Notes under the pieces: model-generated
What the model was told of the DNA's origin: nothing
The model's input: only the letters and a program-made list of their open reading frames with translations
The model's database searches: none
Origin: Arthrobacter sp. PM3
Lineage (GTDB): Bacteria > Actinomycetota > Actinomycetes > Actinomycetales > Micrococcaceae
Direction of reading: 5' to 3'
NCBI RefSeq assembly: GCF_003352915.1
Contig: NZ_CP022314.1
Coordinates: forward strand, 729,414-793,413
Length of the DNA: 64,000 nucleotides
Program-made: the position numbers and the translations under genes
Shown here: in pieces, positions 950 through 36,455 of the stretch
Layout: each line of letters starts with the position of its first letter
Position numbering within the stretch: position 1 is the stretch's first letter

Positions 950-3607
950 TTATTCCTTGCGGCGGACCGACAGCCCGCTGCCGGTCGACGCGAGGCCCGC
1001 AGGCCGGTCTGCGCCCGAAGCCCCGCCCATGGTCAGTTCCATGAGGTCCGGCGCGGTGTCCACCACGACTGTGTCGCCGTCGGAGATCTCCCCGGCCAGG
1101 ATGGCCTTGGCCAGCCGGTCGCCGATCTCGCGCTGGACCAGCCGGCGCAGGGGCCGGGCGCCGTACGCGGGGTCGAACCCGGTCACCGCCAGCCACGCAC
1201 GGGCGCCGTCGGTCACTTCAAGGTTCAGGCGGCGGCCCTTGAGCCGCTCGCCCAGCTCCTTGACTTGCAGTTCCACGATCCGGGACAGCTCCTCGACGCT
1301 TAGCGGGTCGAACAGCACCACTTCATCCAGCCGGTTCAGGAACTCGGGCTTGAAGGAGGCGTGGACGGTGGCCATGACGGCGTTCCTCTTGGCCTCGGCG
1401 TCCAGGTTGGGATCCACCAAAAACTGGCTGCCAAGGTTCGAGGTGAGCACCAGGATCACGTTGCGGAAGTCCACGGTGCGGCCCTGGCCGTCGGTGAGCC
1501 GGCCGTCGTCGAGGACCTGCAGGAGGATGTCGAAGACCTCCGGGTGGGCCTTTTCCACTTCGTCGAGCAGCAGCACCGAGTACGGGCGCCGGCGGACGGC
1601 CTCGGTCAGCTGGCCGCCCTCCTCGTAGCCGACGTAGCCGGGAGGTGCCCCGACCAGCCGCGCCACGGAGTGCTTCTCCGAGTATTCGGACATGTCGATC
1701 CGCACCATGGCGCGTTCGTCGTCGAACAGGAAGTCGGCGAGGGACTTGGCGAGCTCGGTCTTGCCCACGCCGGTGGGGCCGAGGAACAGGAAGGAGCCGG
1801 TGGGCCGGTTGGGGTCGCTGATTCCGGCGCGGGCGCGACGCACCGCGTCGGAGACGGCGGCGACGGCCTTGCTCTGGCCGATCAGCCGCTCGCCCAGGAC
1901 CTGTTCCATCTCCAGCAGCTTCTGGCTCTCGCCCTGGAGCATGCGCCCGGCGGGGATGCCGGTCCAGGCCGAGATCACCTCGGCGATGTCATCGGCGGTG
2001 ACCTCGTCGGCCACCATCTGCCCGGACTTGTCCGGCACGGCGGCCTCCGCCTCGGCGGCGGCGTTCAGCTCCCGCTCCAGAGCCGGGATTTCGCCGTAGA
2101 GGACCCGGGACGCCGTCTCGAGGTCACCCTCACGCTGGGCTTTGTCGGCCGCGGACCGGAGCTCGTCGAGCTTGGCGCGGAGGTCGCCCACCCGGTTCAG
2201 GCCGGCCTTCTCAGCTTCCCAGCGGGCGTTCAGGGCCGCAAGCTCTTCCTTCTTGTCGGCCATGTCGGCGCGAAGGGCCGCAAGGCGTTCCACGGAGGCG
2301 GGGTCGGTCTCGCCGGCCAGGGCCAGTTCCTCCATGGTCAGCCGGTCCACCTGCCGGCGCAGCTGGTCGATTTCCTCCGGGGCGGAGTCGATCTCCATGC
2401 GCAGCCGGGACGCGGCCTCGTCCACGAGGTCGATCGCCTTGTCCGGCAGCTGGCGGCCGGAGATGTACCGGTTCGACAGGGTCGCGGCCGCCACGAGCGC
2501 CGAGTCGGCGATCGAGACCTTGTGGTGGGCCTCGTAGCGTTCCTTGAGGCCGCGCAGGATGCCGATGGTGTCGTCCACGCTCGGCTCGCCGACGTAGACC
2601 TGCTGGAACCGGCGTTCCAGGGCGGGGTCCTTTTCGATGTTCTCGCGGTACTCGTCCAGCGTCGTGGCGCCGATCAGCCGCAGCTCGCCGCGGGCCAGCA
2701 TAGGCTTGAGCATGTTGCCGGCGTCCATGGAGCTGTCGCCGCTGGCCCCGGCACCGACCACAGTGTGGAGTTCGTCGATGAACGTGACAATCTGACCCTC
2801 GGAGCTCTTGATCTCCTCCAGAACGGCCTTGAGCCGTTCCTCGAATTCGCCGCGGTACTTCGCGCCGGCCACCATCGAGGCGAGGTCCAGGGCGATCAGG
2901 GTCTTGCCGCGGAGGCTTTCCGGCACGTCGCCTTCCACAATGCGCTGGGCGAGGCCTTCGACCACCGCCGTCTTGCCGACGCCGGGCTCGCCGATGATCA
3001 CCGGGTTGTTCTTGGTGCGGCGGCTCAGGACCTGGATGATCCGCCGGATCTCGGCATCACGGCCGATCACCGGGTCCAGCTTGCCCGAGCGGGCGACCGC
3101 GGTGAGGTCCGTGCCGTACTTCTCCAGCGCCTGGAACGAATTCTCGGGGTCGGCGTTGTCCACCTTGCGGTCGCCGCGGACGCCCGGCAGGGCGGCAAGG
3201 AGCGCCTCATGCGAGGCGCCCGCCTCGCGCAGAAGCCGCCCGACGCCGTCGCTCCCGGCCGCGAGCCCCAGCAGCAGGTGCTCGGTGGAGACGAAGCTGT
3301 CGCCGAGGCGCTCGGCCTCGTTCTGGGCGTTCTGGATGGCCTGCAGCCCGGCCCGGGACAGCTGCGCCTGCTGCACGCTGCTCCCGGAGGTGGACGGGAG
3401 GGCCTTGATGGCGGTGCTCGCCTGGACGCTGACAGCATCCGGGTCGGCCCCGGTGGCCCGAAGCAGCGCGACGGCGACGCCCTCCCGCTGGTCCATGAGC
3501 GCCTTGAGCAGATGGGCTGGTTCGAGCTGCGGGTTTCCTGCGGTCGAGGCGTTCATGGCCGCTGCAGCGAGAGCCTCCTGGCTCTTGGTGGTGAATTTGG
3601 CGTCCAA
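950..3607 (-). CDS. clpB: ATP-dependent disaggregase ClpB
   Basis: An 885-residue Hsp100 chaperone that extracts polypeptides from aggregates together with DnaK/DnaJ/GrpE in the cytoplasm. Visible domains are the N-terminal Clp repeat domain (1-150), AAA+ module 1 (Walker A GEPGVGKT, about 205), the coiled-coil M domain (about 410-530) and AAA+ module 2 (Walker A GPTGVGKT, about 610; GYVGYEEGG pore loop). The start is the TTG at 3607, because GGAAGGAG sits 6 nt upstream and the protein then begins with the conserved [12 protein letters not shown]. An upstream in-frame start would add 27 atypical residues. Control by HspR is likely from the inverted repeat just upstream. Length is normal for the family. 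Confidence 0.97.
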
Positions 3608-3637: not shown

Positions 3638-3666
3638 CAAAGTTGAGTCTACATCGCTCAACTTTG
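3638..3666 (-). promoter_or_regulatory. HAIR-like HspR operator upstream of clpB
   Basis: A perfect 10-bp inverted repeat, CAAAGTTGAG (3638-3647) and CTCAACTTTG (3657-3666), with a 9-bp spacer. Its TTGAG-N9-CTCAA core matches the HspR-associated inverted repeat (CTTGAGT-N7-ACTCAAG). It lies 31 bp upstream of the clpB start, where a repressor would block the heat-shock promoter. Confidence 0.8.
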
Positions 3667-3796
3667 CGATGGCAGCCGCACGCACCATGTTTGCCGACAG
3701 CGAAACGCCTGTCTAGGGGCGGAGTGCCCGCGGGGGTTCAAGGCAGATGGCGGGCACCTTGCCGGGGGCGGGAGCGGAGGCTTGCTTTCACCGGGG

Positions 3797-3918
3797 CGAG
3801 GGGCCGGGGCGAGGGGCCGGGGCGAGGGGCCGGGGCCTGGGGCCGGGGCGAGGGGCCGGGGCCTGGCGCCGGGGCGAGGGGCCGGGGCCTGGGTCTGGGT
3901 CTGGGTCTGTGTCTGGGT
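3797..3918. repeat. 13-bp G-rich minisatellite plus GGGTCT repeats
   Basis: Seven tandem copies of a 13-bp unit (CGAGGGGCCGGGG, with variants CCTGGGGCCGGGG and CCTGGCGCCGGGG) at 3797-3887, followed by about five imperfect 6-bp GGGTCT-type repeats to 3918. Many GGGG runs on the + strand give G-quadruplex potential. The 13-bp period and extreme composition argue against coding. This is part of the gene-free stretch 3667-4292. Confidence 0.85.
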
Positions 3919-3944
3919 ATCCCCCACCGCACCCCCACCGCAGG

Positions 3945-4178
3945 GGACATGCTCATTCCTCCCCGCCGCCCCGTGGGACATGCTCATTCTTCCCCGCCGC
4001 TCCCGGGGGACATGCCCTCCCCTCAGCCCATGGACTGGACATAGGACCACTATGTCCATCCCTCCGCCCCAAGACTGGACATGCGCCCTTGGCCGGGGCG
4101 CGAGGAATGAGCATGCCCCGCCGGCGACCCACGAAGAATGAGCATGCTCAGCACGACGGGGCAGAAACGGGCATGCCC
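3945..4178. repeat. Symmetrical array of CATG-centred palindromes (array 1)
   Basis: A central 23-bp element (4036-4058: TGGACATAG, 5-nt spacer, CTATGTCCA) is flanked by 10-bp RGRCATGYYC-type sites at 3945, 3976 and 4008 on the left and 4077, 4109 and 4140 on the right, plus one at 4169. Site centres lie 34.5, 66.5 and 97.5 bp from the core on both sides. Left sites read GGACATGCTC or GGACATGCCC. Outer right sites read GAGCATGCCC, GAGCATGCTC and GGGCATGCCC, so the block is an imperfect inverted repeat of about 205 bp. Function is unknown; a related array lies at 9593-9970. Confidence 0.9.
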
Positions 4179-4292: not shown

Positions 4293-5351
4293 ATGCAGGA
4301 ACATGCCACAAACAACGTCATGGACGGCCGCGCGGCGCCGGTTTCTGCCGCGGCGGTAGCGCGGGCGGCCGGGGTATCCCCGGCGTCAGTGTCCTATGTC
4401 CTCAACGGCAAGGGCGGAGTCTCGCCCGAAACGCGGCGCCACATCATCCACGTGGCCAATGAGCTGGGCTTCAGGCCCCGTAAGCCCTCGCAGTCCACGG
4501 ACCCGCAGCGGACGCGGGTCATCGGACTGATCCTGCCCAACATCATCAACCCGATGTTCCCCCGTTGGGCCCAGGGCGTGATCTCCGCGGCGGCTGAATC
4601 CGGCTACGAGGTGTTCGTCGCCACCACCCAGGACGATCCCGCCACGCTCGCCCAGGTCACCTCGACGCTCGCGCACCGCAACGTGGACGGCATCATCCTC
4701 GCCGCGTCACTCCGGGACGACGCCACAGCCCTGCGGACCCTGCGTGCGGCCCGGATCCCCTACGTGTGCCTGTCCCGGCGGGCGGATTTCCTCGACTCTG
4801 ACTTCGTAGGGATCGACGACGACGCCGCAGCCACCGCGCTGATGCAGCACATGCTTAGCCACGGCTTCACCGAAATCGCCACGGTGATCGGCCCGCGGTT
4901 CTCCACGGCCTCCCTGGCCCGCGAACAAGCCTTTGTCCGGACCGCCGCCGCGGCCGGGATCACCATCAGCAGCGACCGCAAGATCAGCACCCGGGTCAAC
5001 AACGAGGGCGGCCGGCTGGCCGCCGAACGGCTGTTCTCCGCCGGGACCCCGCCGCAGGCCGTGGTGTGCGGCAGCGACGAACTTGCCATCGGCGTCATGG
5101 AATATGCGTTGTCCCGCGGGCTGCGTATCCCGGACGACGTCGCCGTCGCCGGCTGTGACGGCCTGCCCCACAGCCGCTCCGGGCTGATCAACCTAACCAG
5201 CATTGTCCAGCCGCAGCAGGAGATGGCCAACGAGGCCTTCGCCATGCTGCTCAAACGCATCGATTCCCCGTCCGCCACCTACACCTCCAAAGTGTGCCGG
5301 CACCGCCTGCACGTCGGCCGCACCTGCGGCTGCACGCCGGCCACGTCCTGA
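4293..5351 (+). CDS. LacI-family transcriptional regulator
   Basis: A 352-residue repressor-type regulator with an N-terminal helix-turn-helix and hinge (AAVARAAGVSPASVSYVLNGKGGVS, about 15-40) followed by a periplasmic-binding-like effector domain. The ATG at 4293 follows GAAGGAGGG at good spacing. The longer frame from 4218 has no ribosome site. It is the first gene of a co-oriented cluster with a sugar-acid permease, SDR, BKACE and glycerate kinase, so it probably senses the substrate or an intermediate of that pathway. The C-terminus carries a Cys pair (CRHRLHVGRTCGC) of unknown meaning. Confidence 0.92.
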   Translation: MQEHATNNVMDGRAAPVSAAAVARAAGVSPASVSYVLNGKGGVSPETRRHIIHVANELGFRPRKPSQSTDPQRTRVIGLILPNIINPMFPRWAQGVISAAAESGYEVFVATTQDDPATLAQVTSTLAHRNVDGIILAASLRDDATALRTLRAARIPYVCLSRRADFLDSDFVGIDDDAAATALMQHMLSHGFTEIATVIGPRFSTASLAREQAFVRTAAAAGITISSDRKISTRVNNEGGRLAAERLFSAGTPPQAVVCGSDELAIGVMEYALSRGLRIPDDVAVAGCDGLPHSRSGLINLTSIVQPQQEMANEAFAMLLKRIDSPSATYTSKVCRHRLHVGRTCGCTPATS

Positions 5352-8600: not shown

Positions 8601-9629
8601 GTGAACATCCTCGTGGCCCCGGACAGCTTCAAGGGCACGTTCAGCGCGGCCGAGGTCGCCGCGCACATCGCGGCGGGCATCCGGTCCGCCGGCGGCGCCG
8701 CCCGCGAACTGCCCGTGGCCGACGGCGGCGAGGGCACCTTCGAGGCGCTCGCCGCCGGGCTGGATGCCCGGCCCGTCCGGGTCGCCACCGTAGGTCCGTG
8801 GGGCGAACCGGTCGACGCGGTGATCGGGCTGACCGACGGCGGAACCGCCGTCGTCGAACTTGCGGCCGCGAGCGGCCTGAACCTGCCCTCCTGCACGGGC
8901 CGGGACCCGGTCGCGGCCAGCACCTACGGCACCGGCGTACTGATCGCGGAGGCCGCCCGCTACGGCGCACGGCGCATCCTGGTGGCGGCCGGCGGCTCGG
9001 CCACGACCGACGGCGGCGTCGGGGCCATCGCCGCAATCGAGGACCGCGGGGGGATTCTCGGCGCGGAGATCGTGGTCCTCAGCGACGTCACGACCCGTTT
9101 CAGCGACGCGGCCCGGGTTTTCGGTCCGCAGAAAGGCGCCGGGCAGGACACGGTCGGGCTGCTCACGCGCAGGCTGGACATGCTCGCCGAGTCGTTCGCC
9201 CACGACTACGGGCGTGATCCGCGGCCGGTGGACCGCACCGGCGCAGCCGGCGGGTTCTCCGGCGGCCTGTGGGCCCGCTACGGCGCCAGCCTGGTTTCGG
9301 GAGCGGATTATGTGCTGGACCTGCTGGGCTTCGATGCACACCTGGCCGGGAGCAGCGCGGTGGTGGTCGGCGAGGGCCGGCTGGATTCCCAGACCGGCCA
9401 GGGAAAGATCATTGCCGCCATCCTGGCCCGGGCAGGCACCACGCCCGTGTACGCCGTGGTGGGATCGGTGGATCCGGACTTTGGCGCCGCCGCCGACCGT
9501 TTTGCCGGCATCATCGTGGCCGGAACTCCTGCCGCAATGGCAGCCGCGGGCGCTGAACTGGCCGGGGTGGTCCCGCAGTCTCCCCGGCCGCGGGACATGC
9601 CCTCCGTTAGGGCTCACCAGTGGACATAG
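8601..9629 (+). CDS. Glycerate 2-kinase family, compact, tail encoded by the repeat array
   Basis: A 342-residue ATP-dependent glycerate kinase (GlxK/GarK type) yielding 2-phosphoglycerate. It shows VAPDSFKGTFSA at the start, ADGGEGTFE, GGSATTDGG and VFGPQKGA. The GTG at 8601 starts 4 bp after the BKACE stop. It is shorter than the usual 375-385 residues. About 25 residues are missing before FGPQKGA, where SDVTTRFS replaces the usual DVDNPL-like segment. The conserved C-terminus ends near 325, and the last 15 or so residues with the TAG stop come from repeat array 2. Activity is likely but untested for this trimmed form. Confidence 0.88.
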   Translation: MNILVAPDSFKGTFSAAEVAAHIAAGIRSAGGAARELPVADGGEGTFEALAAGLDARPVRVATVGPWGEPVDAVIGLTDGGTAVVELAAASGLNLPSCTGRDPVAASTYGTGVLIAEAARYGARRILVAAGGSATTDGGVGAIAAIEDRGGILGAEIVVLSDVTTRFSDAARVFGPQKGAGQDTVGLLTRRLDMLAESFAHDYGRDPRPVDRTGAAGGFSGGLWARYGASLVSGADYVLDLLGFDAHLAGSSAVVVGEGRLDSQTGQGKIIAAILARAGTTPVYAVVGSVDPDFGAAADRFAGIIVAGTPAAMAAAGAELAGVVPQSPRPRDMPSVRAHQWT

Positions 9630-9970
9630 GCCCACTCTGCGCATTCCTGGGCTCGAAGATTGGGCATGCCCCCGCGCGCCCGGCCTCAGGACTGGGCATG
9701 TCCCCCCATTGCCCCGCCCGAAGGCCGGGCATGTCCTCCGTGAGGGCCGACCAGTGGACATAGGCCCACTCTGCGCATTCCTGGGCTCGAAGATTGGGCA
9801 TGCCCCCGCGCGCCCGGCCTCAGGACTGGGCATGTCCCCCCATTGCCCCGCCCGAAGGCCGGGCATGTCCTCCGTGAGGGCCGACCAGTGGACATAGGCC
9901 CACTCTGCGCATTCCTGGGCTCGAAGGTTGGGCATGTCCCCGCGGGAGGGCGCGAAAAATGGGCATGTCC
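9593..9970. repeat. CATG-palindrome array 2 with 134-bp tandem repeats
   Basis: Same architecture as array 1. Three cores beginning TGGACATAGGCCCA (9621, 9755, 9889) are each flanked by GGGCATGYCC or GGACATGCCC sites centred 34.5 bp away on both sides (sites at 9593, 9662, 9727, 9796, 9861, 9930). Further sites lie at 9694, 9828 and 9961. The block is two full copies and a partial third of a 134-bp unit, nearly identical between copies. The right half of the core palindrome is degenerate compared with array 1. The gene-free stretch 9630-10132 otherwise holds only the regulatory motif at 10061-10090. Confidence 0.92.
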
Positions 9971-36320: not shown

Positions 36321-36401
36321 CGCCGGCGGTGCCGCATTGCCCGCCCCGCCGCGGCGCGGGACTTGCTAAACTTGGGCCCCAAGGCCCGCTGTTCCGGGCC
36401 T

Positions 36402-36442
36402 CCGGACGACGGTTCAGTACCCGGCACGCGACAAGACTGGCC
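36402..36442 (+). promoter_or_regulatory. Guanidine-III (ykkC-III) riboswitch
   Basis: The three conserved blocks of the guanidine-III aptamer occur in order and spacing: CCGGACGA (36402-36409), GTACCCGG (36417-36424) and GACAAGAC (36430-36437). TTCAGT and ACTGGCC pair as the variable stem. The aptamer ends 1 nt before the CAGGAG ribosome site (36444-36449) of the SMR exporter gene, the usual layout for translational activation by guanidinium. Confidence 0.88.
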
Positions 36443-36455
36443 ACAGGAGCTTGTC

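Follow-up and report, generated by a model that had tools for sequence, protein, structure and literature searches.

A dispersed symmetrical CATG-palindrome repeat of Arthrobacter and a predicted partner nuclease gene bracketed by its copies

The window, i.e., the whole stretch of DNA analysed here, comprises 64,000 nt (G000:C1:729414-793413) of the 4.35-Mb single-contig genome of the soil bacterium Arthrobacter sp. PM3. An array of CATG palindromes lies in it between clpB (minus strand, predicted at 950-3607) and the gene for a LacI-type regulator (lacI; plus strand, predicted at 4389-5351, with its true start probably upstream of 4389). This array is not a product of chance but a clustered form of a repeat that is dispersed through intergenic regions, and copies of the repeat bracket a gene, located outside the window, for a predicted winged-helix nuclease. 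The first-pass annotation had described an inverted core centred at 4047, seven CATG sites with centres at ±34.5, ±66.5, ±97.5 and +126.5 bp from it, and a degenerate site near -127. All of these were found, the sites starting at 3945, 3976, 4008, 4077, 4109, 4140 and 4169. The features, none of which is assigned to a strand, are as follows.

3945-4178: CATG-palindrome array, centred on the inverted core
4036..4058: inverted core, TGGACATAG-GACCA-CTATGTCCA, centre 4047; the same core class is present in the 33 strict genome copies described below
4008..4086: minimal element of 79 bp (CATG palindrome at -34.5, core, CATG palindrome at +34.5), a fixed-spacing unit found in 46/160 genus genomes
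3945..3954: CATG site, centre -97.5
3976..3985: CATG site, centre -66.5
4008..4017: CATG site, centre -34.5 (fixed position)
4077..4086: CATG site, centre +34.5 (fixed position)
4109..4118: CATG site, centre +66.5
4140..4149: CATG site, centre +97.5
4169..4178: CATG site, centre +126.5, the last array site before lacI
3915-3924: GGGTATCCCC, the degenerate site, centre -127.5 relative to the core
9593..9970: second array, built like the first, with three cores at 134-bp intervals, each flanked by CATG sites at ±34.5, and assigned to the same family; the cores consist of TGGACATAG and a degenerate right arm

A genome-wide search, as proposed in the first-pass annotation, showed that the spacing is conserved and that the motifs occur above chance. 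In the host genome, TGGACATAG was found at 45 places as compared with 2 for the reversed pattern, and GGRCATGYCC 236 times against 22 (forward counts). The strict 73-nt pattern, CATG-N21-core-N21-CATG with up to 3 mismatches of 26, gave 33 copies and its control none, while a relaxed pattern (20 fixed bases, up to 3 mismatches) gave 64 and none, respectively. Because TGGACATAG was searched without regard to its flanks, the 45 places provide a fair test of the ±34.5 spacing; a CATG palindrome stands at +34.5 in 35 of them and at -34.5 in 32, and 10 have no CATG site within 150 bp. When records from named genomes were collected by the core alone and duplicates were dropped, 79/86 strand-wise readings from Arthrobacter and Pseudarthrobacter had a site at +34.5, as against 0/16 from other genera.

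The inner unit is constant, with CATA at ±5.5, CATG at ±34.5 and a step of 29 bp. The outer steps vary: 32 bp (70 cases), 29 (47), 33 (20), 31 (19), 23 (11), 34 (10) and 22 (9), with rarer others including 45-47. The full symmetry to ±66.5 and ±97.5 is therefore a special case of the window copy and not a rule; the position that stays fixed across copies is ±34.5.

None of the 231 distinct cores lies inside a gene called by a simple codon-usage gene finder (19 at locus edges were unclassified). The intergenic regions holding cores were convergent in 78 cases, codirectional in 68 and divergent in 13, as compared with 10, 45 and 10 among the window's own 65 gene pairs. The elements are biased to the intergenic 3' ends of genes, and the window array, unusually, lies between divergent genes. 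The strict pattern was detected in 17/395 family genomes, 16 of which belong to the genus (host included), and the relaxed pattern in 46/160 genus genomes at 1-60 copies each, with zero in the remaining 114 and in the controls. All 18 array-bearing genomes in a ClpB tree of 31 genomes fall into one clade, whose fork is not fully supported (94/85) and which also holds the array-less G009, G382 and G355. Four changes suffice to place array presence on this tree, versus 10.1 with shuffled labels. In the subclade of G355, G380 and G364, the copy number is 0, 1 and 3, respectively.

The clpB-lacI space was compared among relatives by means of LacI orthologues, detected at E <= 1e-60 in 14 of the 42 genomes searched. 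The array is present there in the window and in L112, L113, L117-L121 and L123; it is missing in G368 and G383 (L114 and L116) despite 40 and 25 copies elsewhere in these genomes, L115 carries other DNA at this place, and L122, L124 and L125 were not anchored. Seven of the eight array-bearing relatives have a core inside the limits searched, and at its variable positions these share 47-70% identity with the window core; the baseline, 59 other host-genome cores against the window core, has a mean of 52% and a maximum of 68%. At this place, motifs and register persist while the spacers are nearly randomised. Several relatives also have a CATG site within ~10 nt of the 4169..4178 place, measured from lacI. 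Searches of plasmids with the window array, of phages with the second array and of viral contigs with the exact core-plus-one-site pattern gave no match.

The proteins encoded next to arrays were surveyed with Pfam, using 68 from the host genome and 98 from other genomes (a selection of 247 predicted). No dominant gene class appeared among these 68 and 98 proteins. However, the 98 included four with the MTES_1575 domain (PF18741) and three with AbiEi_4 (PF13338), and these two domains led us to a candidate partner gene. At least eight genomes have a small MTES_1575 gene no more than ~750 nt away from an array (PF18741 search, 46 genomes). PF18741 itself was rejected as a marker of array-bearing genomes, since all 46 carry it; several proteins per genome have the domain, and its mere presence is uninformative for that reason, whereas the subfamily and the flanks do separate the genomes. 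For a flank test, 35 loci were given, of which 28 encode a protein matching the family motif and 24 of these belong to what we call family 1. Arrays on both sides, defined as at least three CATG sites within 600 nt upstream and at least three downstream, were found at 23/24 family-1 orthologues. Five of the loci had been fetched because they hold arrays and three more (G000, G368 and G208) had a known adjoining array; among the remaining 16, both sides were flanked in 15. The four sister-clade loci, treated in the same way, had 0-2 CATG sites per side. Flanking on both sides was seen even in G364 and G106, where the pattern search gives 3 canonical cores and none, respectively. The upstream element sits near the promoter of the partner gene, which keeps like neighbours across species (putatively typA and a gene for a ferredoxin, as we read them). 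The host's own copy is located at G000:C1:4306274-4307081 (L040, L295) and is split over two overlapping frames, apparently at a C run, where mutation and assembly error are indistinguishable.

The partner is predicted to join an AbiEi-like winged helix and a Vsr/homing-endonuclease-like nuclease domain in one protein. PF13338 scored above its cut-off in 3/4 partner proteins, and the N-terminal fold of a structure model matched 6y8q (E 6e-5). The nuclease part of the predicted structure has a Vsr-like fold with conserved acidic residues, and the nuclease residues are invariant; a PDB sequence search with the nuclease alignment returned no match. Relatives are annotated as 'type IV toxin-antitoxin system AbiEi family antitoxin domain-containing protein', 'DUF559', 'very-short-patch-repair endonuclease' or hypothetical.

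A second repeat accompanies the sister orthologues. G177, G344, G386 and G360 are array-negative and have an orthologue at the same place, with ~50% identity for the three of the four that were aligned. The gene there is bracketed by another palindrome, TGCGCAGGGACWGTCCCTGCGCA, located ~108 nt before and 16-19 nt after it, in 3/4 sister orthologues (mismatches upstream/downstream: G344 2/3, G386 3/5, G360 2/1), and degenerate copies lie beside the fourth (G177, 6/5). On the flanks of the 24 family-1 loci, TGCGCAGGGACWGTCCCTGCGCA was not found within 6 mismatches. At up to 3 mismatches, it was present in 10/19 genomes without canonical arrays (a set that includes G106), versus 0/18 array-bearing ones, and the controls gave 0. 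Its 24 copies form a symmetrical unit, having GCGC-type sites at ±8.5 (exact in 27/48 halves) and ±31.5 (20/48). Six of the seven TGCGCAGGGACWGTCCCTGCGCA-bearing genomes in the ClpB tree form one clade (95/99). The inner and outer offsets add up to 40 bp in both families (5.5+34.5 and 8.5+31.5), though sequences and steps differ.

Bracketing was also found in other lineages. A profile of the partner protein detected homologues (E <= 1e-30) in 49/218 genomes of the order. From 30 fetched loci, three family-1 genes and two loci at contig ends were dropped, and the 25 kept comprise 5 from the genus, 4 from the family and 16 from other families. Similarity between the upstream and downstream flanks exceeded that of 95% of 600 mismatched pairs at 17/25 loci and that of 99% at 8, whereas 4/25 control regions 1 kb further out passed; the nominal p of this excess is 8e-11, the mismatched pairs not being independent. 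Thirteen loci, mostly high scorers, were inspected, and several have elements of 80-110 bp with inverted ends and unrelated sequences. In G645, which belongs to another family, the element arm occurs 25 times versus 3 for the control. Eleven distinct elements could be recognised there as inverted pairs (92 bp in 10 and 93 in one), with conserved ends and a variable middle. Two of these copies bracket the nuclease gene and nine are scattered. Target-site duplications beside the 11 copies were not apparent by eye. From 20 stretches fetched for second homologues, 18 were tested, and the passing loci include that of the host, G000:C1:256359-257165 (L375), which is bracketed by a third, unrelated element of ~82 bp beginning near CCGTCCGGGGGC. 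Taken together, the comparisons suggest that related nuclease genes are often bracketed by their own differing repeats, in an undescribed repeat-plus-nuclease partnership. Around these genes, a DnaA-box-like sequence, TTGTCCACA (up to one mismatch), occurs within 150 bp upstream in 16/41 loci, downstream in 4/41, and in 0 and 1 of 25 far regions; a replication link is possible.

For a fusion protein that is flanked by, and changes with, a dispersed symmetrical element, the simplest reading has the protein attach to the element and the nuclease domain bring about copying or rearrangement. We consider it rather probable that the protein binds the element and that the predicted nuclease spreads or remodels it, in the manner of the REP-associated tyrosine transposases (RAYTs) and their REPINs (paired repetitive extragenic palindromic, REP, sequences) with an unrelated enzyme. 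Binding, cutting and the driving of spread are deduced here from association. Several protein copies, probably assembled into a symmetrical multimer, would occupy the inverted core and its flanking palindromes in double-stranded form; the nuclease would nick or cut the bound element or the empty site; and repair would then copy, expand or move the element. Such a repair step would account for the tandem units, the presence or absence at one place and the upkeep of motifs amid spacer turnover. A broader proposal is that AbiEi-winged-helix/Vsr-like nucleases form a widespread class across the Micrococcales, each with private, fixed-length symmetrical elements that bracket the gene, are copied by the nuclease and co-diverge with the protein, convergent with RAYT-REPIN. 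Copying would then be a gene-drive-like homing of tiny non-coding elements. We regard this wider proposal as evenly poised.

Several observations weigh against the reading that the protein binds the element and spreads it. Concerning the gene, the host nuclease copy is frame-broken, yet 64 array copies persist; G407 has 28 copies and no orthologue at the place fetched; in G355, G380, G382 and G009 neither presence nor lack of an orthologue was established; G106 lies outside the array clade and has no canonical core, yet carries arrays beside the nuclease gene; and the G485 family-1 locus has eight CATG sites upstream and none within 600 nt downstream, the sites resuming further out. Concerning the protein, the MTES_1575 match is below the curated cut-off in 4/4 proteins, and residues 211-240 of the model have a predicted local distance difference test score (pLDDT) of only 61-65. 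In the comparisons, 8/25 homologue loci show no flank similarity above the null while the 4/25 control regions pass; only 6/18 second homologues pass, against a noisier null; G198 carries the family-2 repeat and falls outside the family-2 clade; and this repeat is found in only 10 of the 19 array-negative genomes. Neither an excision product nor a target-site duplication was seen, and the flanking arrays could be autoregulation operators.

The arrays may instead belong to a domesticated DNA-binding system, which would shape the chromosome (by insulating convergent genes, looping or nucleoid organisation) or regulate genes, with the nuclease activity secondary or silent and the repeats retained for host function. 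The convergent and 3'-end bias agrees with this explanation, as do the vertical occurrence within one clade and the clpB-lacI cores, whose spacers are hardly more alike than elsewhere in most relatives while motifs and spacing persist. However, whole arrays are missing at that place in two relatives, copy number changes between 0, 1 and 3 within one subclade, the nuclease residues are invariant, and the tandem 134-bp copies resemble recent amplification. We consider domestication unlikely. Still less probable is autoregulation combined with coincidence, in which the flanking arrays serve an AbiEi-type regulator as operators only, while the dispersed copies act as decoys or derive from an unrelated mobile element as by-products. 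AbiEi and the related Rv2827c are reported to recognise paired 23-bp inverted repeats within the promoters of their own genes (PMC7319586), and the upstream element here is likewise near the promoter; this explanation leaves aside the copies downstream of the gene, the tens of dispersed copies and the recurrence of bracketing with unrelated sequences in other families.

A hairpin-forming RNA or DNA structure (a bidirectional terminator, an mRNA stabiliser or a cruciform) is very improbable. The array RNA folds better than 200/200 shuffles (z -4.3), as expected of a near-palindrome, and convergent genes are preferred. In sets of 69 and 82 non-redundant cores, on the other hand, left and right arms agree at most positions about as often as unrelated arms. 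The larger set, drawn from 231 cores, gave a signal at offsets -3 (z 3.5) and -12 (z 2.7) with hints at -13 and -16. In within-genome shuffles (8 genomes, 115 cores) the excess vanished except at -12 (z 3.2), with a hint at -19 (z 2.3), which leaves complementarity close to the shuffled expectation at almost every offset; consensus sequences particular to lineages account for most of the first signal, and the residual one counts against a pure duplex reading. A terminator, moreover, needs neither a fixed sequence nor the ±34.5 spacing. Since the arms do not covary apart from that offset, recognition of duplex DNA by a protein is a better fit than a hairpin, and the paired copies of one motif in constant register are indicative of a symmetrical protein bound to the double strand. 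Among the ideas put forward at first, a transcribed structure is not supported; the RNA can fold, but conservation does not appear to follow base pairing. A multimeric binding platform fits the conserved sequence and spacing, the arms without covariation and the array-flanked gene of DNA-binding type, with the binding itself predicted.

A true REPIN or REP mobilised by a RAYT or an IS200/IS605 Y1 transposase is next to impossible despite similar behaviour (dispersed, extragenic copies that bracket a partner gene), because PF01797 was found in 0/35 genomes, 22 of them array-bearing, versus 5/14 control genomes in the same search. A RAYT or IS200/IS605 partner was rejected accordingly. Parts of one report (PMC3116915) describe REPIN-RAYT systems of Pseudomonas and others as short palindromic extragenic repeats in many dispersed copies, with clusters beside each single-copy RAYT gene and one repeat flavour per RAYT. 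The present repeat shares this form, with none of the 231 cores inside a predicted gene and arrays on both sides of the partner gene at 23/24 loci. The partner differs, however, as it is a predicted winged-helix and Vsr-like nuclease and not a Y1 (HUH) transposase, and the element, which appears to be recognised in duplex form, is a symmetrical unit of constant geometry, 79 bp long here and 92 bp in G645. The earlier label of a REPIN-like mobile repeat is thus apt for the behaviour, including intergenic location and presence or absence at one place, and not for membership.

AbiEi antitoxins and Rv2827c, of type IV toxin-antitoxin systems, share the N-terminal fold (6y8q) and the Pfam AbiEi_4 domain, and their paired inverted repeats adjoin their own gene, as far as the same portion of PMC7319586 describes; here, by contrast, a nuclease domain is fused and repeats lie on both sides of the gene and genome-wide. 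Homing endonucleases are reported to promote the movement of the reading frames that encode them (PMC3943268). The Vsr-like homing endonuclease I-Bth0305I (3r3p) and Vsr (1cw0) differ from the partner in that the DNA associated with the latter is a dispersed palindromic repeat, with no intron or intein noted. Small dispersed repeats such as miniature inverted-repeat transposable elements (MITEs), BOX, RUP and ERIC are short, intergenic and multicopy. The present element is so too, but no full-length transposon parent was seen, and the partner gene stays in one gene neighbourhood, bracketed by copies. The literature search, of limited coverage, found no account of these repeats or of a link to an AbiEi/MTES_1575 protein, and a prior description is possible; an Arthrobacter genome appears in a table of REP counts in PMC12306157. 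We rate the system as new because neither enzyme nor element fits a named repeat system found in our searches, while on a stricter view it could be a variant of repeat-plus-partner systems.

Linking these nucleases with dispersed repeats offers a testable pair, namely a protein and its presumed cognate DNA, with natural specificity variants across lineages. If the nuclease does copy the element, this would be a second, independently evolved solution to the task of RAYT-REPIN; it would bear on how short non-autonomous bacterial repeats persist with a partner that itself stays put, and it would offer nucleases with long, strongly geometric DNA targets.

Other features of the window were also noted. 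In the second array, TAG at 9627-9629 within the first TGGACATAG is the stop codon of a frame read as glycerate kinase, and a Gly_kinase match is present among the array-neighbour proteins of the Pfam survey. In-register copies of 13-bp tandem repeats (CCGGGGCGAGGGG and variants) directly adjoin the first array at 3791-3907; none were seen in the relative L112. An inverted repeat, AAAGTTGAG...CTCAACTTT, lies 5' of clpB at ~3639-3665, is retained in several relatives and resembles the HspR/HAIR heat-shock operator. At the Rfam gathering threshold, the sole match in the whole window was a Guanidine-III riboswitch at 36379-36445 (58.4 bits), unrelated to the array.
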